A DNA stretch of 37,462 nt from Rikenella microfusus (lineage in GTDB: Bacteria > Bacteroidota > Bacteroidia > Bacteroidales > DYQK01): assembly GCA_020719385.1 (NCBI GenBank), contig DYQK01000018.1, positions 1 to 37,462 of the forward strand, in the 5' to 3' direction. A program made the translations under genes and the position numbers. Below are positions 4,121 to 37,462 of this stretch, piece by piece. Under the pieces are notes generated by a model that searched no databases, was not told the origin of the DNA, and saw only the letters and a program-made list of their open reading frames with translations. Each line of letters opens with the position of its first letter. Within the stretch, counting starts at the first letter, position 1.

Positions 4121-7100
4121 ATGAGATTTTATATTTTAACTTTAATTTTCTCGTTGCTTGTCTTTTCCCTGTCGGGGCAGGTGAAGAATCTTGGTGTGCC
4201 GCAAGTGATTAATTATTCCAAAGAAATTTATTCCGCAGATGCACAAAATTGGGCAATTTTGCAGGATGAACGCGGAGTTCTCTATTTTGGGAATAATACT
4301 GCTGTTCTCGAATTTGACGGAAATCAATGGAAAAAACATTTTACCTCAAATAAATCGGCGGTAAAATCATTGGCGAGAGATAAAAATGGTCGCATTTATG
4401 TCGGTGGGAAAGCAGAATTTGGTTATCTCAAAGCAAATACAAAAGGCGAGTGGCAATATATCTCGTTAGTCGATTCGGTTGCACAGAAATATCGCAAGTT
4501 TAAAGATGTGTGGCAAATTTTTGAGACAAAAAACGGAGTTTGCTTCAAAACTCCCGAAATGGTTTATCTTTACAAAAACGGACAATTTTCAGTTTTGCCC
4601 GCAGAAACAAGTTTTAGTCTTTCATTTTTGGTCAACGGAGAATTTTATGTCAAAGAAGATGAAATAGGTATTAAAGTACTTAAAAATGGAGAATTGGTTT
4701 TGATTCCTGAAAGCGAACAATTTGCAAAAGAATCCATTCGCGGAATGATTCCTTACGGGAAGAAAATTTTAATGATTACGTGGAGTCAAGGTTTTTGGTT
4801 ATTTGACGGCGAGAAATTCGAAAAGTTAAAAACACCTATTGATGATTTTGTAGACAAAAATAAAATTTATTGTGCTATTCCGTTGAAAAACAATTACTTA
4901 GCCTTCGGCACTTTTTCAAATGGAGTATTAGTCGTTGATAATAATTTTAACCCCGTTCAATTAATTAACTCACAAAAAGGTTTACAAAACGACAAGGTTT
5001 TAAATATGTTTTTTGATAATCAAGAGAATTTGTGGCTCGCATTGGGCAACGGAATTTCTTCCATACAAATTACTTCGCCATTTTCGACTTTTGACGAGAG
5101 ATATGGACTCAATAGTGCAACTTATTCCTCAATAATTTTTCAAAATAAATTATATATCGGCAATTCTAACGGCGTTTTTTACACAAATTGGAAGAATCAA
5201 AGTGCGTTGTCAAATTTTGAGCAATTTAAACCCATTGAACATTCTGCGGGACAATTTCAGGCGTGGAATCTTGATACGGCAAACGGAGTTTTACTTTGCG
5301 GTTCAATGATAGGAATTTTCTCTATCAAAAATAATAAAACAGAAAATATCTCGAATAAAAAAGATGTTTATACTTTTTTGCCGCTGAAAAATAAACCCAA
5401 TACTTTGCTTGTCGGAGCAAGAAACGGACTCGGAATAATGATTTTTAAAAATAATAAATGGCATTATTCCCACGATATCAAAGGTTTTAACGAGACTTGC
5501 AGATATTTGCAACTCGACCAACAGCATATTTGGGTTTCTGAAAAAACAAAAGGAATTTATCGATTAAAATTAAACGCAAGTTTAGACAGCGTTGTAGAGA
5601 CAAAATTTTTTGATACTAAAAGCGGCTTGCCGACAAATTTGAAAAATACAGTTTTCAAATGGCAAAACGAGATAGTTGTTGGAACAGAAAAAGGAATTTT
5701 TAGATACGAAAAAAACAAAGATACTTTTGTGATTTTCAAAGAGTTAAGCAGATATATCGGTGATTTAACTATTCACGATTTACTTGTTGATAATTACTCA
5801 AATATTTGGTTTTGCGGCTACAAAACTCTTAATAAAGAGAAGCAAACTATTGAACTTTGCGGCAAATTTCACTATTCAAAAAATGATTCTACAAAAAATA
5901 AGCGAATCGTTTTTGGGAAATTTATCAATAAAATCAAGGCTGTTACTCCGATAGCAAAAAACGAATTGCTTTTTTACACCGATAAAGGTTTTATTCATTT
6001 CGACCAAAGTATTGAAAAGAATTTTTTGCAGTCTTATTTTGCACACATACGAAAAATTGAGTTTCTTGCGAAAGATTCTACGCTTTTTTATGGGAATTTT
6101 TATCATCCGCAAAACGATTTTTCATTAACGCAGTTGAGAAAGGAAATTCCTAAGATTGATTATGATTTTAACGGTTTATTGTTTACTTTTTCTGCGTGTT
6201 TTTATGAAGACGCCGATAGAGTGAAGTATAAATATTTTTTGGAAGGCGATGACGCAGGTTGGTCGGAATGGAAGGACAAGAATTTCAAGGAATATTCGAA
6301 TTTGCCGTCAGGAAAATATACGTTTCATCTCAAAGCGTTGAATATTTATGACAACGAAAGCGAGGAAACAAAATTTTCGTTTATCATTCTATCTCCTTGG
6401 TATTTAACGGTTTGGGCGTTTATTGGTTATATAATTATTATGGCATTTATCATTTGGGGAATTGTGAAGCTGAGTGTTAAACGTTTGGAAAAACAAAAAG
6501 AACATCTTGAGAAGGTTGTCGCACAACGAACCGAGAAAATTGCTTTTCAAAACGCAGAATTGAACCAACAGAAAGAGGAAATTATGTCGCAAAGAGACAT
6601 TCTTTTCGAGCAAAATGAAATGATTAAAGAGAAAAATAAAAGTATTACCGCAAGCATCACCTACGCAAAACGCATTCAAGAGGCAATGTTGCCCTTCGAA
6701 AAGCGAATCGCAGAGTTTATTCCCGAACATTTTATTCTTTTCAAACCGCGAGATATTGTTAGCGGCGATTTTTATTGGTTTACCGAGAAAAACGGCAAAA
6801 TTGTCTTCACAGCCGTAGACTGCACAGGACACGGCGTTCCGGGAGCATTCATGTCAATGATTGGAAGTCAGATTTTAACCAACATCATTTATGAAGGCAT
6901 TTTAGAAGCCGATGAGATTTTAAATACTCAAAGCCGCCACATCAGACACGCATTGAAGCAAGAGGAAACAGATAATCAAGACGGAATGGATATGGCTTTG
7001 TGTGTTATTGATTTGGAAAAGAAAATTTTGCAATTTGCAGGGGCAAAAAATCCGCTTATTTACATTCAAAACGGAGAATTAAACGAATGTAAGCCCGATA

Positions 7101-8049: not shown

Positions 8050-8962
8050 AAATCATTATGAAAAAAGTTGTGTTTCCTGTCCGCGTGAATGTTTGGTTGA
8101 CAGAAGTTCGCAAAAATTAGGTTTTTGCAAAACAGATAATTCGTTTAATATTGCTTCGATTTGTCTGCATCGCGGCGAAGAACCCGTGATTTGCGGGCAA
8201 AACGGAATTTGTAACATTTTTTTTTATAGCTGCAATTTGCAATGCGTTTATTGTCAAAATTCGCAAATTTCTTCGCACAAAAATAAATTTTCTCAAAAAT
8301 TTCAACATATTGAACAAATTTTAAACGAAATAGATATTTGTGTAAAACAAGGTGCAAAGTCGGTTGGTTTTGTTTCTCCCTCGCATCTTGCGGAGCAGGT
8401 GAAATTGATTATTGAGTCGTTGCGGGAAAATCATTTTTCTCTCACAACGGTTTATAACTCAAACGCTTATGATTCGGTGGAAACCTTGCAGAAATTAGAA
8501 AATTATATAGATGTTTATTTGCCCGATTTTAAATATATGGACAGCAATCTTGCAAAGACATACTCTCAAGTGCTTGATTACCCCGAAGTTGCGGCAAAAG
8601 CGATTCGCGAAATGTATAGACAAAAAGGTTCTTCTTTGCGTTTAGACGATGACGGAAATATTGAGTCAGGTTTAATTGTGCGTCATTTGGTTTTGCCGAA
8701 TCATATCGAAAATAGTATTTCGGTACTGAAATATTTGGCAGAGGAGATTTCTCCGTTGATTTATGTTTCGCTGATGTCTCAATATTATCCGACAGAAAAT
8801 GTGAGGAATCATTCGTTTTTAAACAGAAGAATTACAAAAGAAGAGTACGAGAAAGTAATTTCAGAGATGGAAAATCTCGGAATTTTTCGTGGTTGGGTGC
8901 AGGAGTTGGAAAGTTTTTCTCATTATCGCCCCGATTTTGACAAAAAACATCCTTTTGAGTAA
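8039..8962 (+). CDS. PflX-like radical SAM protein (pyruvate formate-lyase activase homologue)
   Basis: A 307-residue radical SAM protein. The cluster-binding motif C65-x3-C69-x2-C72 (CNLQCVYC) is intact. Extra N-terminal cysteines (C11, C14, C18, C30) match the CxxCPRxC start typical of the PflX group (COG1313), uncharacterised homologues of glycyl-radical enzyme activases. The C-terminal half has conserved-looking blocks such as DVYLPDFKYMD and the LVLPNH stretch. No glycyl radical enzyme is in the window, so its substrate is unknown. It starts at the ATG at 8039, within the preceding gene; a nearby second ATG at 8058 is out of frame. Family confident, reaction unknown. Confidence 0.85.
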   Translation: MKSKNHYEKSCVSCPRECLVDRSSQKLGFCKTDNSFNIASICLHRGEEPVICGQNGICNIFFYSCNLQCVYCQNSQISSHKNKFSQKFQHIEQILNEIDICVKQGAKSVGFVSPSHLAEQVKLIIESLRENHFSLTTVYNSNAYDSVETLQKLENYIDVYLPDFKYMDSNLAKTYSQVLDYPEVAAKAIREMYRQKGSSLRLDDDGNIESGLIVRHLVLPNHIENSISVLKYLAEEISPLIYVSLMSQYYPTENVRNHSFLNRRITKEEYEKVISEMENLGIFRGWVQELESFSHYRPDFDKKHPFE

Positions 8963-8996
8963 AATATTTTTGAAAATTTATTAAACAAATAAAATA

Positions 8997-9119
8997 ATGT
9001 TACCTCAAATTATCGAATCGAAATTTTCTGAGTTGCAAAATATTTTTATTTTGCACAAAATAAAATGCGTTTACATTTTTGGTTCTGTTTTAACAGAGAA
9101 ATTAATTTTTAATTTATGA
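8997..9119 (+). pseudogene. Truncated nucleotidyltransferase (MNT-type) stub, 40 codons
   Basis: An ATG at 8997 opens a 40-residue frame ending in TGA at 9117-9119. Its sequence (LQNIFILHKIKCVYIFGSVLT) looks like the first helix, beta strand and FGS motif of minimal nucleotidyltransferases, the DNA polymerase beta-like family that includes MntA antitoxins and KNTase-like proteins. The downstream DxD metal site expected about ten residues after FGS is missing because the frame stops. It overlaps the histidine kinase ATG by four bases (ATGA). It is best read as a decayed or truncated gene. A short functional leader that couples translation to the kinase is an alternative. Confidence 0.5.
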
Positions 9120-10216
9120 AACCTTATAATATTTTAATCGTTGACAACGACGTGAACGACCAAAATACGGTTATTGAGATTTTGGAAAAAAGTAATTCAA
9201 ATTATAATTTGTTGCGTTCTCTTTCGGCTCGTCAGGGTTTGGTTATTGCTGAGCGGATTTTGCCCGATTTAATTATTACCGATTGGTATATGCCTGAAAT
9301 TTCGGGGATAGAATTTATCAAAAATCTCAAAAGCAAAGAGACAACAAAGAATATTTTAGTCATTATGTGTACGGGCGTGATGACTTCTTCGGAGAATTTG
9401 CAACTTGCTTTCGAAGTTGGGGCAGTCGATTTTGTGAAAAAACCCATTGATAAGGTCGAGTTAGTCGCAAGAGTGCGGTCAATGTTGCAGTTGGCAGATA
9501 ATATTCGAGAGAATAAAGAGTTAATTGAGTCGAAAGATAAACTTTTTTCGATAATTGCTCATGATTTGCGAAGTCCTTTTTCTGCTTTGAAAGGTTTAAC
9601 TGAAGTTTTGCAGCAGAAATATTCCACATTTAGCAAAGAAAAGTTAGAGAATTGGTTGAAAATAATTAATCAAAGTGTAGATAAAACGTATAATTTGCTC
9701 GAAAATTTGTTGCAATGGTCTCGAACGCAGTTAAATAAAGTTATTTTTTCTCCAATTCCGTTATATTTGCACGGAATAATTCTCGAAACGGTAGAAATTT
9801 ATGAAAATATTGCATTTCGAAAAAATATTGAGATAAAAATTTCTGTCGAAAAAGATATTTATATTCTTGCTGATGAGTCAATGTTGCGAGTGGTTTTTCG
9901 AAATTTGATTTCGAATGCGTTAAAATTTACTCACAAAGGCGGCGAGATAGAAATTTCTGCGATAATAAACCTCGAAGTTGTCGAAATCTCAATAAAAGAC
10001 AACGGAATCGGAATTTCTCATTCCAATTTGACAAATTTATTTAAAATTGGCGAGATATTTTCCACCTTCGGCACAGAGGGCGAAAACGGTTCTGGACTCG
10101 GTTTAATTTTGTGTTACGAATTTTTGAAAAAACACTCAAGCGAGTTAAAAGTCAGCAGCGAGCAAAACAAAGGCAGTAAATTTTGTTTTTCTCTCCCTTT
10201 GGTGAAAAAAATCTAA
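9116..10216 (+). CDS. Receiver domain - histidine kinase protein (soluble hybrid)
   Basis: A 366-residue cytosolic signalling protein without membrane segments. Residues 1-125 are a receiver domain with acidic pocket D10/D12, phospho-acceptor D56 (IITDWYMP) and K109 before a proline. Residues about 138-205 are a HisKA domain with H149 in SIIAHDLRSPFS. Residues about 245-364 are a HATPase_c domain with N-box N263/N267, G1 box DNGIGI (295-300) and G2 box GSGLGL (325-330). This arrangement takes phosphate from another kinase and passes it on through its own kinase module. It follows the SpoIIE/zinc-ribbon/PflX genes on the same strand, so shared signalling is plausible but unproven. No cognate DNA-binding regulator is in the window. 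Confidence 0.92.
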   Translation: MKPYNILIVDNDVNDQNTVIEILEKSNSNYNLLRSLSARQGLVIAERILPDLIITDWYMPEISGIEFIKNLKSKETTKNILVIMCTGVMTSSENLQLAFEVGAVDFVKKPIDKVELVARVRSMLQLADNIRENKELIESKDKLFSIIAHDLRSPFSALKGLTEVLQQKYSTFSKEKLENWLKIINQSVDKTYNLLENLLQWSRTQLNKVIFSPIPLYLHGIILETVEIYENIAFRKNIEIKISVEKDIYILADESMLRVVFRNLISNALKFTHKGGEIEISAIINLEVVEISIKDNGIGISHSNLTNLFKIGEIFSTFGTEGENGSGLGLILCYEFLKKHSSELKVSSEQNKGSKFCFSLPLVKKI

Positions 10217-25181: not shown

Positions 25182-26162
25182 TTAACTCAATTTTTCGATT
25201 TCAGAAATAGAAATTCCTGTCAATATTGAAATTTCGTCTTTTGATTTGCCCGAAAGCAGCAGAGTGCGAACCAAATTTTCAATAACGGAACGTTGATTTT
25301 GCAATTCTTTGTCCTTGAGTTGCAATTCTTGAGCCTGTTTTTGCGATATTTCGCGTTCCTCCTGCAATTCTCTCTCAATTCTCTCCCATTCTGTCGTATA
25401 TTCCTTCTCTAACTGTAACTTTCTCCCAAATTCATCGCTTTCCGCAGGAATATTCAAGTGAAAAACGAAATCTTTGTTCAAAGAATTCGACTCAACATTC
25501 AAAATGTAATCCTTTCCCTCAACTTGATGAGTCTGGTCGAAAAAAGTCAACAATTTCATTAAACGCGAATTCGGACGCACAGGAATACGCAAAACTTGAA
25601 TAATGTAAGTCTGATGAGTTAAAAGTTTCACAAATTCGTTTTTAACGTCAATTTTCTTTTTCGAAACGGCGTTAAACACTTGATTATCAACGAAAATCGC
25701 AGGCTCTTGATATTCTGACATCAGATAACCAAGAAAATAAATCGAAATTATCGGCAAAGAACGGAATTTCTCAACACCTTTCTCGTCAACATATTTTTCG
25801 CCTCGCAAATAATTTGCTCCGAGATATTGTCGAAAACGCTCGATTGGGTCGGGATAACGAGATTTCTGAACTTCAATTAAAATTTTCTGTTCTTTTCCGT
25901 CTTCTGTTTTCACAACTGCTTTAAAATCAAGCCGATAAATCGACAAATATTCCGAAATTGTTGTTTCAGTTTTACGTTTTCGCTTCGATTCTTTTTTAGG
26001 TTTCACTTTTGTGCGTTTCAACTCTATTGCTGTTTCTTGCGGAAAAACTTCGAGAGACAGAATTTCTTTGTCAATAATGGCGGAAATTAATTTCTTTGCT
26101 AATTTCTTGTTGTCCATCAAATATTTAAAAGCGGTATCATAAAGTGGGTTGACAATTCGCAT
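25182..26162 (-). CDS. Rpn family PD-(D/E)XK nuclease / putative transposase
   Basis: A 326-residue protein opening MRIVNPLYDTAFKYLM, the typical start of Bacteroidetes PD-(D/E)XK nuclease family 'transposases' (Rpn-like). The nuclease core shows D79 (YRLDFKAV) and E97-x-Q99 (ILIEVQKS). A coiled coil (about 255-300) follows, and the C-terminus ends with a motif, LTGISISEIEKL, very like the one in the Rpn-like gene at 33617. Rpn proteins of E. coli are DNA endonucleases that stimulate RecA-independent recombination; extension to this gene is inferred. I use the ATG at 26162 because it matches the family start; an upstream TTG at 26183 is in frame. It is isolated, with its own -7 element and terminator. 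Confidence 0.85.
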   Translation of the reverse strand: MRIVNPLYDTAFKYLMDNKKLAKKLISAIIDKEILSLEVFPQETAIELKRTKVKPKKESKRKRKTETTISEYLSIYRLDFKAVVKTEDGKEQKILIEVQKSRYPDPIERFRQYLGANYLRGEKYVDEKGVEKFRSLPIISIYFLGYLMSEYQEPAIFVDNQVFNAVSKKKIDVKNEFVKLLTHQTYIIQVLRIPVRPNSRLMKLLTFFDQTHQVEGKDYILNVESNSLNKDFVFHLNIPAESDEFGRKLQLEKEYTTEWERIERELQEEREISQKQAQELQLKDKELQNQRSVIENLVRTLLLSGKSKDEISILTGISISEIEKLS

Positions 26163-26180
26163 AAAAGTTAAAATTTTTTG

Positions 26181-26188
26181 CAAAAATA
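26181..26188 (-). promoter_or_regulatory. -7 element for the Rpn-like gene
   Basis: On the minus strand TATTTTTG (26188-26181) matches TAnnTTTG and lies 18 bases before the ATG at 26162. No TTTG is seen 19-22 bases upstream. This position supports the ATG over the TTG at 26183, which would fall inside the -7 box. Confidence 0.4.
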
Positions 26189-26287: not shown

Positions 26288-27133
26288 ATGAAAAAAATAG
26301 AGGAATATTTTTTTCGAATATTAATGGCTTTTGCCACTTTTATCATTGTTTTAGGTCTGTTTGCGATATTTTTTAGTATTCTTCGAAGAGGAATTCCTGC
26401 TCTTTCGTGGGAAATTTTGTCTCAAACCCCAAAAGGCGGATTTTATTTTGGAAAAGAAGGCGGAATATTGAACGCAATAATCGGTTCTTTGTACTTAGCA
26501 GTCGGAGCAACATTGGTTTCGCTTGTCATCAGTTTGCCTGTCGCTTTGTATATGAACGTTTTTTTGTTCAAAAGAAAAAAATTAGTCAACACAATTCGAT
26601 TTTTTCTCGATTTACTTTGGGGCGTTCCGTCAATAGTTTATGGAGCATTCGGTTTTTCGCTGATGGTTTACTTCGGAATAAAAACTTCACTTTTGGCAGG
26701 AATCATTGTCGTGACTCTTTTTATAATGCCGATAATGGTTCGAGCAATGGACGAGGCATTAAAATCTGTTCCGTCTGGACTTTTGGAAGCTTCACTTGCT
26801 TTGGGAGCAACCGAATCGGAGACGGCTTTCAGAATATTTCTCAAACAAAGTTCATCAGGAATTGTTACCGCCATTCTTTTGTCTTTTGGAAGAGCCATCG
26901 GCGATGCCGCTTCGGTGCTTTTTACCACAGGATTTACCGACCATATCCCCAATTCGATATTTCAGCCTGCCGCCACATTACCTCTTTCGATATTTTTTCA
27001 ATTAAGTTCACCGATTCAAGAGGTAAAAAACCGCGCTTACGCAGCAGCAGTTGTTTTAACGATAATGATTTTAATTATCAGTTTACTTTCTCGATATTTA
27101 TCAAGAAAATTTTACAAAAATCGTATCAAATAA
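26288..27133 (+). CDS. pstA: Phosphate ABC transporter permease PstA (orphan)
   Basis: A 281-residue inner-membrane permease with about six helices. The EAA-type cytoplasmic loop EASLALGATESETAFRIFL (about 170-188) contacts the ATPase. The N-terminal RRGIPALSWEIL and the WGVPSIVYGAFG segment are PstA-like. PstA with PstC forms the channel for periplasmic phosphate delivered by PstS and driven by PstB. None of pstS, pstC, pstB or phoU is here, and the next gene is convergent with only 2 bases between stops. It therefore either works with partners elsewhere or is a remnant, although the reading frame is intact and has its own promoter. Confidence 0.88.
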   Translation: MKKIEEYFFRILMAFATFIIVLGLFAIFFSILRRGIPALSWEILSQTPKGGFYFGKEGGILNAIIGSLYLAVGATLVSLVISLPVALYMNVFLFKRKKLVNTIRFFLDLLWGVPSIVYGAFGFSLMVYFGIKTSLLAGIIVVTLFIMPIMVRAMDEALKSVPSGLLEASLALGATESETAFRIFLKQSSSGIVTAILLSFGRAIGDAASVLFTTGFTDHIPNSIFQPAATLPLSIFFQLSSPIQEVKNRAYAAAVVLTIMILIISLLSRYLSRKFYKNRIK

Positions 27134-27135
27134 AT

Positions 27136-29284
27136 TTATTCGTTGAGAAATTGATAAGAAATTTTTAACAAAAAAGTTTCTGTTGGTTGCCCCATTCCCA
27201 ATTTGCCCATCAGACGAATGTTAGTCGATTCTTCAGGGTCGGTATATTTCATTGCTCCGAGATTATTTGCTGCCACAGTAAATGTCCAAGTTTTTGTTGG
27301 CGTGAAAGCAACGGAAAAGTTAAAATGTTGATAAGAATCGATTTTGACAATTCGATTTTCCATAAAGAATCGATTATTAGATTCTGTTTCGCTGCCAAAA
27401 TTTGTACTCGCAAAAATTTGAAGTTTATAAAAAAGTTTTAACTCAAAACCTGCATTGTAGCGAAATGTTGGAATATTTTTTAATTCGTTGTCGCCTTCTT
27501 CTTTTTGCATATATCGAATGTGAGAATTGAAAAGTGCATTTTCTTTCCATTCGAAAGTGGTCTGAAATGTCGAAGCGTTTATAAAAAAATTCAATTTTTT
27601 ATAAATAATTTGCATTGTAAACTCCATTTCGCCGCCGAAGCTAGTTGTATTTCCCATGTTTTCATAAACGCCGACTCCGCCTGTTCCGTTTGCATCATAA
27701 ATACTAATGATATTATTTGCAAAATTGTAAAAAGCATTCATTCGCAAAATATATTTTCGCTGACTAAACTCGATTCCAAATTCTGCTGATCGCACTGTTC
27801 CGGCATCTAAACTTTCATTTCCTCTTACTCCCGCAATATATTCGTTGAGATTGGTTTTATCATACAATTCTTTGAACGTTGGAGCGCGAAACGCTTGTCC
27901 GTAGAGAAGTTTAATGTAAATATTTTCGAAAGGTTGCCACCAATGCGTTTTGATATTCGAAATTCTGTACACAATTCCTAAACGCGGATTCAAAGATTGC
28001 CCGAAATCGCTATAATCATCATAACGAAAACCCATTGTTACTCCGACTTTTTTAAAATTAAAAACGCCTTGCAGATAATATGCCATAACAGTACGATTTT
28101 TTCCGCGTTGATTATACTCAATATTGTTATAATTTCCCATTTCCCCGATATATTTCGGACCAACTAAATCATAATTTTTTAAAACTTCATATTTGGGCAG
28201 CGACAAATTCTCGAAAACGTATCCTGTTGTAATGTCAAGAATATCATTGGGGAAATAATCGATTTGAATTTCACCACCGAGATTTATTCCTGTATAAGTT
28301 TCTTGCGTCAAAGCACCGTCAATAAATTTTTCACCGTTGACAACATAATTATCTGGATATTCCTGCAACAGATAATCGTGTTGAATAATCGAGGAATAAA
28401 TTTTCGGGATAATCGAAAACTTCGGGGTAATTTTCATATTATAAGACAAATCAGAGAAAGATTGCAAATTTTTAAAATCGCAGTCTGTGGTAACTTTATA
28501 CAAAGGACCAACCCAACTTCCTTGATTTCTGTAGAGATTAAAAGTCGAAAAACGAAGTTTTTTATACGAAATATTTGTCTGCAAATATGCATCTTTCAAC
28601 CAATAATTGGTTTTTTTGTCATTTTTGTCAACTGCGGCAGGGTCGTCTGAACGTGGAAAAACATTTGCTCCATTGGTTTGCGAATAACCTGTTGAAATGT
28701 TAAAATTTATTTTTCCTTTGTAAAAATAATTTGCGTTTCCTGAAAAAGTAGTGTTAGTCCCGCCGCTAATTGCGGCACTTTTTTCGTTTTTTTTCGTGAT
28801 AATATTGATGACACCCGCCAATGCGTTGCTGCCGAATAATGCAGAGCCTGGACCTCGAATGACTTCGATTTTTTCGATAAAATCCATTGGAAAATCGAAT
28901 ATTGGTCTTCCGTCATAAAAATCGTTTATTGAGTGACCGTCAATTAAAACTAAAACATTGCCGTCATAGCGCATTCCGCGAATCGAAATTCGGTAATTTC
29001 CGTTCACTCCCATCGAAGTTTCAATGCCAGGAACGTGTTTTAACACATCAATTAACGTTGTTACGCCCATTTTTTTTCAATTCATTTTTCGACAATGAAC
29101 TAATTATCGAAGGGGCTTCGCTTAAGTTTTGCGATTTTTTGGTGGCAGTAATCACTTCCACTTTCGCCAATTCCTCAAGTGTGAGTTCAAAAATATCAAT
29201 AATTGTGTCTCTTCGAGGTTCATCTTGCGAAAAAGCATTTATAAACTTGAGAAAAATCACAAAAAACAAAACAAATTTTTTCAT
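27136..29284 (-). pseudogene. TonB-dependent outer-membrane receptor, interrupted by one extra A in an A8 run
   Basis: Read across a frameshift, about 715 residues: signal peptide (starting MKKFVLFFVIF), then DIFELTLEELAKVEV-type lead and plug domain (IRGMRYDGNVLVLIDG, IEVIRGPGSALFGSNALAGV), then the beta-barrel ending in FLLKISYQF. The first frame covers 29284-29048 and stops at NNVN; the second covers 29070-27136 and opens at an internal ATG. At 29070-29077 (A8 on the minus strand) a run of seven A would join the two into a natural ELKKMGVTTLIDVLK. It may be phase-variable or slippage-restored, a real mutation, or a sequencing error. The ligand is unknown; the plug is of siderophore/vitamin B12 receptor type. 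Confidence 0.8.
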
Positions 29285-29353: not shown

Positions 29354-30164
29354 TTATGGAAGTTTAAATTTAATTCGTCCTTCGACTGTTGGAGTAACAG
29401 GAGTGTGTTTTTTCAAATAAGCCTGCAATGCTTCACGATTCATCGGACATTTTTTGTCAGGACAACTATATAACATCTGTTTTTTGTCCGCAGGAACACT
29501 CAAAAACGCAACAAAACCATCTTCTCCTTCAGAAATCCAAGTAGGAACAACTATTTTGTATTTTGATGTTGGTTGCACTTCGACACCGTTAACTTTAATG
29601 GAAACAACCCTATTGCCGGGCGTCTTTATGACAGGTGGTTTCGCAACATTATCAATGATTTCAGCGGTTTTCGTTAAATCATATTCCACTTGTATTTCTT
29701 TGGAAACTTGCAAAAACCATCCACTTCCAGAGCCTGACGTGATGGGCAAACCGTTCACGGAATGCTCGAAAATTAACTTCAAATCAGCGCCTGTTACTTC
29801 GACTATTGACAAAACGCCGTCGCTCCAAGGGAATATTTCGTTAATAATCGCGGTATCCACTTTCATTCCTGCAGGATAAATCCCATCGGAATGTTTGGCT
29901 TCGGTAAAACGTATACTTCCTGAATTTACAGCGACAAAATCCACTGTGTCCTTTTGATTCGGCAAATTCTTTGTACGCATCGGAAATCATATTACCGAGT
30001 GGCGTTTCTGTGCTTCGCAAAATTGGTTTATTCGCATTCAAAGGAACGGTAACTATTCCAAAAACATTTGGGTCAGATGACGAAGTTGAGTCATCGCTTT
30101 TGCTGCACGAAACAAAAAAAGCAGCAAAAAATAAAACTGTTGTGAGTGAGAGTAAGAATCGCAT
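29354..30164 (-). pseudogene. 5'-nucleotidase C-terminal-domain lipoprotein, frameshifted
   Basis: Together about 269 residues of a UshA-type 5'-nucleotidase C-terminal domain. The first frame (30164-29841) has a lipoprotein signal with C20 (FFVSC, then SKSDDS, an acidic tail that may favour surface export) and the ETPLGNMISDAY segment. It loses the family sequence after EFAESK. The second frame (up to 29980, ending at 29354) continues with KDTVDFVAVNSGSIR and covers the rest. The join is at about 29950-29956: one extra base, most simply a G in AAAAGGAC. Such proteins bind the nucleotide or complete a split nucleotidase; a metallophosphatase partner is not in the window. It may be a real mutation or a read error. 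Confidence 0.78.
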
Positions 30165-37370: not shown

Positions 37371-37389
37371 ATTCTTTTTCAGTGAATTA

Positions 37390-37462
37390 CCCCTTTGCTG
37401 CTGAGAAAGGGGCTTCTTAGCATTGTGCCAAGAACTTTTCTTGGTTCTTCGATAGTATGCTA
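37390..37462. other. Cluster of alternative hairpins at the window edge
   Basis: Several stems overlap and exclude each other: CCCCTTT (37390-37396) with AAAGGGG (37406-37412); GCTGAGAA (37400-37407) with TTCTTAGC (37414-37421, one G-T pair); CCAAGAA (37428-37434) with TTCTTGG (37438-37444); and TAGCAT (37418-37423) with ATGCTA (37457-37462). The segment is more GC-rich than the rest of the intergenic DNA and continues past the window. It has no T tract, so it is not an obvious terminator. It could be a mobile-element end, a structured RNA or a repeat. Confidence 0.45.

Follow-up and report, generated by a model that had tools for sequence, protein, structure and literature searches.

Recent gene loss or sequence error, rather than an on/off switch, most likely explains a frame break at an A8 run in a TonB-dependent receptor gene

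Homopolymeric runs that interrupt or restore reading frames are known from several bacteria. The phase-variable haemoglobin receptors HmbR and HpuAB of Neisseria carry a poly-G homopolymer in an otherwise intact outer-membrane receptor ORF (PMC3786947). In tssM1 of Citrobacter rodentium, an A11 run precedes a stop, the gene is complete in another frame, and the run functionally restores the frame by gaining A's (PMC4256274). Single-base indels in A runs also break otherwise intact frames in Blochmannia and Buchnera; the Blochmannia paper counts 153 coding poly-A tracts of at least nine in B. vafer and cites demonstrated slippage rescue in endosymbionts (PMC3017870). Homopolymers took up 151 of the 157 insertions seen in Buchnera, compared with 16 of the 57 deletions, and single-base insertions dominate in the A/T runs of both E. 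coli and Buchnera, with no frame restoration observed in that study (PMC5574713). Slippage by E. coli RNA polymerase is described as requiring at least seven T's, and even more A's (PMC6260861), and programmed frameshifts, according to a published feature table, require a conserved site, which pseudogenes lack (PMC3711429). Among the matches listed by a literature search that left most subscription papers uncovered, none reported that A runs make TonB or SusC receptors of Bacteroidota phase-variable.

The window (the whole stretch of DNA analysed, 37,462 nucleotides; GC 34%) is contig C245 of the draft genome G000, which comprises 3,657,117 bases in 288 contigs, is 98.11% complete and contains 100-N gaps. 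On the minus strand it holds a putative operon, in which a 5′-nucleotidase-C lipoprotein gene comes first and a TonB-dependent receptor gene follows (Table 1). The phosphate permease gene pstA lies nearby on the strand opposite to the receptor (26288-27133), and our guess is that the nucleotidase-like lipoprotein, the receptor and pstA together hint at nucleotide or phosphate scavenging. A further minus-strand ORF at 25182-26183 (333 aa) matches no family of Pfam or NCBIfam at a cut-off of E 0.001; by eye we take it to resemble a PD-(D/E)XK family transposase.

The receptor has both the plug (PF07715, 1.4e-19) and the beta-barrel domain (PF00593, 1.7e-30). It shares this architecture with the colicin I / BtuB / ShuA type of receptor. 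Among solved structures it best matches, in each case over the plug, the colicin I receptor (2.4e-18), BtuB (1.3e-14), PirA (2e-14) and haem receptors such as ShuA (6.8e-9). Unlike these, it is frame-broken before the plug and paired with a 5′-nucleotidase-C lipoprotein. The plug match begins only at profile position 19, and the first ATG of the frame, at 29070, lies immediately behind a run of eight A's (29077-29070 on the minus strand, T8 on the plus strand). Upstream, a leader ORF starts with MKKFVLFFVIFLKFINAFSQ, has a hydrophobic N-terminus that looks signal-peptide-like by eye, and continues through SSLSKNELKK and across the run into NGRNNVN and a stop; its translation thus runs from MKKFVLFF to SKNELKKNGRNNVN and the stop codon.

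The same genome encodes a 696-aa receptor on contig C233 (L002) that is open throughout. By tblastn, residues 1-76 of this paralogue match the leader frame at 58% identity, with the leader stretch DIFELTLEELAKVEVITATKKSQNLSEAPSIIS aligning with its N-terminus, residues 74-696 match the receptor frame at 46%, and the two alignments meet at the A run. Because an intact paralogue aligns across the junction in two different frames, the leader and receptor are one gene with a true +1 shift, and the initial annotation was right to place a receptor frame break at this run. The receptor frame (27136-29076) has no further lesion. The intact paralogue, the sole near paralogue compared (48% identity), has no A run at the junction position.

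Table 1. Coordinates of the frame-broken operon in the window and of the related features elsewhere in the genome.
Feature	Location	Strand	Remarks
5′-nucleotidase C-terminal-domain lipoprotein-like gene, frame-broken	29354..30164	-	precedes receptor; break at about 29946-29960
A8 run	29070..29077	-	frame shifts +1 (one A too many); run-by-run codon test gives frame change, phase 1
Leader ORF, 78 residues	29048..29284	-	ATG 29284-29282, TGA stop 29050-29048
TonB-dependent receptor open frame, 646 codons	27136..29076	-	plug and beta-barrel; ATG start lacks leader
Second sense A8 run	28787..28794	-	receptor frame open across it
Broken receptor	C245 (window)		A8 shift
Broken receptors, two tandem copies	C2		A9 shift and in-frame TGA
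Broken receptor	C204:8500		frame-broken
Broken receptor	C263:18526		frame-broken
Broken receptor	C216:5203		broken; ORF also spans scaffold gap
Broken receptor	C286:10986		in-frame TAG
Broken receptor	C147		short tandem duplication at about 12.25 kb, repeat insertion at about 10.8 kb
Non-TonB frame break	L214:18058		chemotaxis receptor; signalling domain out of frame with sensor and HAMP
Non-TonB frame break	L216:8172		WD40/caspase-domain protein
Non-TonB frame break	L208:14170		weak match to outer-membrane barrel family
Non-TonB frame breaks	L189:6148, L210:5685		without family match
Non-TonB frame break	C186:17080		shift at sense A8+ run
Interspersed repeat copies	window 37382-37461; C147 about 10.8 kb and about 9.5 kb; C65 end		window copy at the window's own end
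Further interspersed repeat copies	C126:3538-3658; C263:16224-16337; C182 start; C157 ends

The frames around the run limit what could be expressed from it. One added A leads into the third frame, which stops immediately (KKWA-stop), and a -1 reading at the run enters the same frame and stops at once. We therefore rejected a programmed -1 ribosomal frameshift, which would miss the downstream receptor frame; the A8 site is also not common to the paralogue, so the conserved-site feature of programmed frameshifts, as that table gives it (PMC3711429), is missing here. Translation in two steps would instead have ribosomes restart at the ATG behind the run, coupled to the leader stop 20 bases downstream, and yield a leaderless, partly functional product. 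The ATG at 29070 and the leader stop at 29050-29048 do overlap, an arrangement that a published classification assigns to translational coupling (PMC3711429, Table 1), but such a protein would be missing its leader as well as plug positions 1 to 18, and no such start occurs in the C233 paralogue. We regard this as extremely unlikely.

Phase variation, which the initial annotation put forward, would mean that slipped-strand mispairing in the A run toggles the receptor and that the consensus captured the off state. A homopolymer in an otherwise intact outer-membrane receptor ORF is the known anatomy of such switches (PMC3786947), and runs of A8 or longer (A8+) are favoured indel sites in this genome. 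However, the run is ordinary. A census of 857,740 bases, drawn from 31 contigs or stretches and with expectations from synonymous shuffles, found 141 sense A8 runs in its 409 long ORFs: 12 in the 35 TonB ORFs against 14.2 expected, and 129 in the 374 others against 164.7. The tract is thus neither longer nor commoner than background in TonB ORFs, and in the window alone open frames contain eight further A/T runs, 8 or 9 bases long, one of them within the same receptor. Longer sense runs are strongly depleted (A9, 16 versus 58.6 expected; A10 or longer, 2 versus 39.0), and long sense A runs appear to be selected against. In contrast to the poly-G of HmbR and HpuAB (PMC3786947), this is a common A8, neither above background nor kept in the paralogue. 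The partner gene is, moreover, broken separately at a different kind of site, outside any long run, and the breaks in the other TonB receptors lie at unrelated places rather than at runs in the same position. Phase variation is disfavoured because it predicts a tract of unusual length or conservation within an otherwise working operon, and neither holds; we consider it unlikely.

The codon signal flanking each run shows how often such runs are out of frame. Two sets were examined, a first set picked for its TonB genes and a second of 40 stretches (450,266 bases), 39 taken by contig number and C166 for the last TonB locus. Of the sense A8+ runs testable in this way, 133 were in frame, four were shifted (three distinct) and one was doubtful. 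The first set contributed 81 runs in frame and all four shifted ones, each of phase 1 (the window run, C186:17080 and two tandem C2 copies), and the second 52 in frame and the one doubtful flag (L191). Sense A7 runs were in frame in 468 cases and flagged in 12, all of which proved on translation to be gene boundaries, and neither set contained an internal frame shift at an A7 run. Two of the ten firm shifts called by the codon model fall in sense A8+ runs (C2 and C186), although such runs account for only 0.2% of the coding sequence (p = 0.0002); the shift in the window receptor stands outside those ten, as the ATG behind the run conceals it from the model. A8+ runs are where indels happen, yet only about 2% of them (three distinct) are out of frame.

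The initial annotation also suggested transcriptional slippage, by which a fraction of the receptor mRNA could become full-length; such rescue has been proposed for endosymbionts with AT-rich genomes. The GC content of 34%, the otherwise intact frames behind Blochmannia A-run frameshifts (PMC3017870) and the functional A11 case in Citrobacter rodentium tssM (PMC4256274) are consistent with it. Against this, A8 is short beside the A11 of tssM1, by a threshold that comes from other species (PMC4256274, PMC6260861), and where tssM1 restores its frame by gaining A's, the window run must lose one or gain two. The dominant product, with one added A, would enter the frame that stops at once, while single-base insertions dominate the published A/T-run spectrum, measured in other species (PMC5574713). 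B. vafer has its many tracts of at least nine A's (PMC3017870), whereas runs of A9 and longer are depleted here, the run is an A8 and the partner gene is broken; the depletion of A9 and A10+ runs suggests that slippage is costly to this genome rather than useful. Together with the separately broken partner gene and the unrelated break sites of the other receptors, this makes slippage very unlikely in our view.

The partner gene provides the additional lesion that a pseudogene should show in the gene or its operon, the receptor frame itself having none. PF02872 matches its second frame (2.3e-17), with no Pfam match in the first, and the paralogous lipoprotein on C233 aligns by residues 11-75 with one window frame and by residues 75-251 with the other. 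This break may be a net +1 or a net -2 shift, the paralogue alignment being compatible with both, and the longest run around 29946-29960 is four A's. The sister operon on C233 is intact in both genes, with a 254-aa lipoprotein-like protein beside the 696-aa receptor. The pairing of lipoprotein and TonB receptor was found twice in the genome, and the three occurrences of the 5′-nucleotidase C-terminal domain in it are the two operon copies and one 616-aa frame. The lipoprotein has at best a weak match in only 4 of 59 order-level relatives. No close homologue of the receptor was found in the 59 relatives (from other families of the order) or in its own genome, and none of the receptor or its paralogue in two species-collection scans with one query each; the best hits of these searches reach 29% identity (G042) and 26% (an uncultured Bacteroides MAG, L176).

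We scored divergence from the C233 paralogues by codon position on either side of each break. Differences at positions 1/2/3 were 0.348/0.174/0.522 in the leader and 0.382/0.305/0.577 in the receptor, and in the lipoprotein 0.339/0.321/0.464 before the break and 0.443/0.345/0.598 after it. Divergence is thus codon-like on both sides of both breaks, which points to breaks that are recent. Judged from these sequences, the genes were probably in frame until recently, a pattern that a recent mutation would explain just as well as an error.

What we observe directly is the two breaks, the intact sister copy and the in-frame divergence flanking both breaks. An on/off switch is less likely to apply than an ordinary, recent loss of the gene (or an error in the sequence), and we give about an even chance to the proposal that one copy of a duplicated two-gene operon recently lost function. 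We hypothesize that one A was added to a short run in the receptor gene, with replication slippage as the most likely mechanism, so that translation from the leader would now end within eight codons of the run. A start at the ATG behind the run would produce a receptor without the signal peptide and the first part of the plug, which we predict to be non-functional, and the separate frame break would inactivate the lipoprotein gene. The intact sister operon on C233 may make the window copy dispensable. The mutation is presumed to be real and fixed, with relaxed selection as the presumed cause.

Real loss is favoured by the second break in the same operon together with the intact sister operon, by the double lesions elsewhere in the genome, which are what real decay looks like, and by the lack, in 858 kb, of near-identical copies to confuse assembly at either site. 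In the 858 kb compared, the best long match to the receptor break site was 70.6% over 265 nt, short matches reached up to 81% over 58 nt, and the lipoprotein break site had no match at E 1e-5. By our arithmetic, which uses six firm non-TonB shifts in 889 kb of long-ORF coding sequence and a sensitivity of 74/120, the chance of an independent second break in the adjoining 0.8-kb gene is about 1%, and such a low chance of coincidence favours a shared cause. Against recent loss, the receptor itself has just one lesion, useful-looking genes (a chemotaxis receptor, a caspase-domain protein) are also broken, as technical indels would give, and clustered errors, for example from locally low coverage, could yield two breaks in one operon.

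The initial annotation had also named an assembly error, in which case the receptor is continuous in the real genome and the extra base and the neighbouring break are sequencing artefacts of the draft. The fragmentation of the genome into 288 contigs with 100-N gaps, the single-base shifts in unrelated genes at the rate just given and a receptor frame without any other lesion are all compatible with this. However, by the comparison with 858 kb the site is no collapsed repeat, sense A7 runs show no internal shift, two breaks would need to coincide within one operon, and other broken receptors carry double lesions and nonsense codons. We therefore consider an error possible but the less likely source of the two breaks.

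Frame breaks elsewhere provide the background to this comparison. Our first codon models over-called frame changes; the later model, which adds overlapping starts, missed both window breaks, and the lipoprotein break was flagged only by the cruder early model. With random spike-ins, sensitivity was 73/120 in TonB ORFs and 74/120 elsewhere. In the first set, the 78 kb of TonB ORFs contained four distinct internal shifts, against one firm shift in the 576 kb elsewhere, and the second gave five firm shifts in other genes (313 kb in long ORFs). Among the 14 events listed for the first set, manual inspection of translations assigned C39:19103, C39:40512, C186:24580, C157:42405 and C74:19510 to ordinary gene neighbours and C74:34831 and C216:4560 to scaffold gaps, and left C65:8040 as doubtful; of the 11 in the second set, it set aside L191:4736, L205, L208:11106 and L216:9105 as ordinary, with L191:9179 again a doubtful case.

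On these counts TonB receptors carry an excess of breaks in the first set (four distinct against one, coding share 0.119, p = 0.0009), in which, however, the idea of enrichment itself arose. With both sets combined the figure is 4/10 (share 0.081, p = 0.006), or 4/12 with doubtful rows included (p = 0.012), and against the second set alone the excess is not significant (p between 0.08 and 0.12). The denominators are ORFs of at least 750 nt, a length that the genes of half the non-TonB breaks (C186, L189 and L208, of six) do not reach, and this weakens the case for enrichment. We regard the excess as suggestive only; frame breaks are a general feature of this draft genome, with a possible extra load in receptors. 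In-frame stops were flagged 27 times in the first set. In 23 cases an ATG lies no more than 8 codons away, marking adjacent genes; the remaining four are C2 (twice), C286 and C258:15312, which is not TonB. The five flagged in the second set look like gene ends by eye. The C258:15312 stop is a TAG in a protein that looks peroxiredoxin-like by eye. At about 19.3 kb on C74, an in-frame TAA falls within a Fic-like motif, which we take to be HPx(x)DGNKR.

We translated 38 of the 39 plug-domain loci found (C166, whose frame is open, was excluded), at least one of which, C32:36023, is probably no receptor. Eight of the 38 (seven distinct) are broken, at unrelated sites and by differing kinds of lesion, and two distinct broken receptors have two lesions each; the readings for C147, C204, C216 and C263 come from manual comparison of translations with other receptors. 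The tandem C2 receptors (6.4-10.8 kb) are 98.6% identical over 2 kb, differ in their signal peptides, and have the A9 frame shift and the in-frame TGA in common. On C286, neighbouring TonB receptors (6368-6770 and 8921-9321) share a leader of 246 nt at 100% identity (95.8% over 405 nt), beyond which DNA similarity ends, and one member has the in-frame TAG; the shared leader suggests leader swapping or gene conversion. Pieces of an interspersed repeat, 88-96% identical, occur at several contig ends and beside or inside TonB receptors.

These features, namely similar leaders, exchangeable barrels, tandem copies and a repeat element beside several receptors, could be read as a modular repertoire in which many TonB receptors are silenced by frame breaks and revived by slippage or recombination, the A8 run being one such switch. 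We find this quite improbable, and return to the recent loss of one operon copy as our preferred reading. By itself the break is a routine frameshift, and homopolymer breaks of this kind need to be judged against the genome background and the adjacent gene. If the eight broken loci of 38, the shared leaders and the swapped barrels hold in reads, this would be a lineage in which to study the loss and reshuffling of a receptor repertoire.
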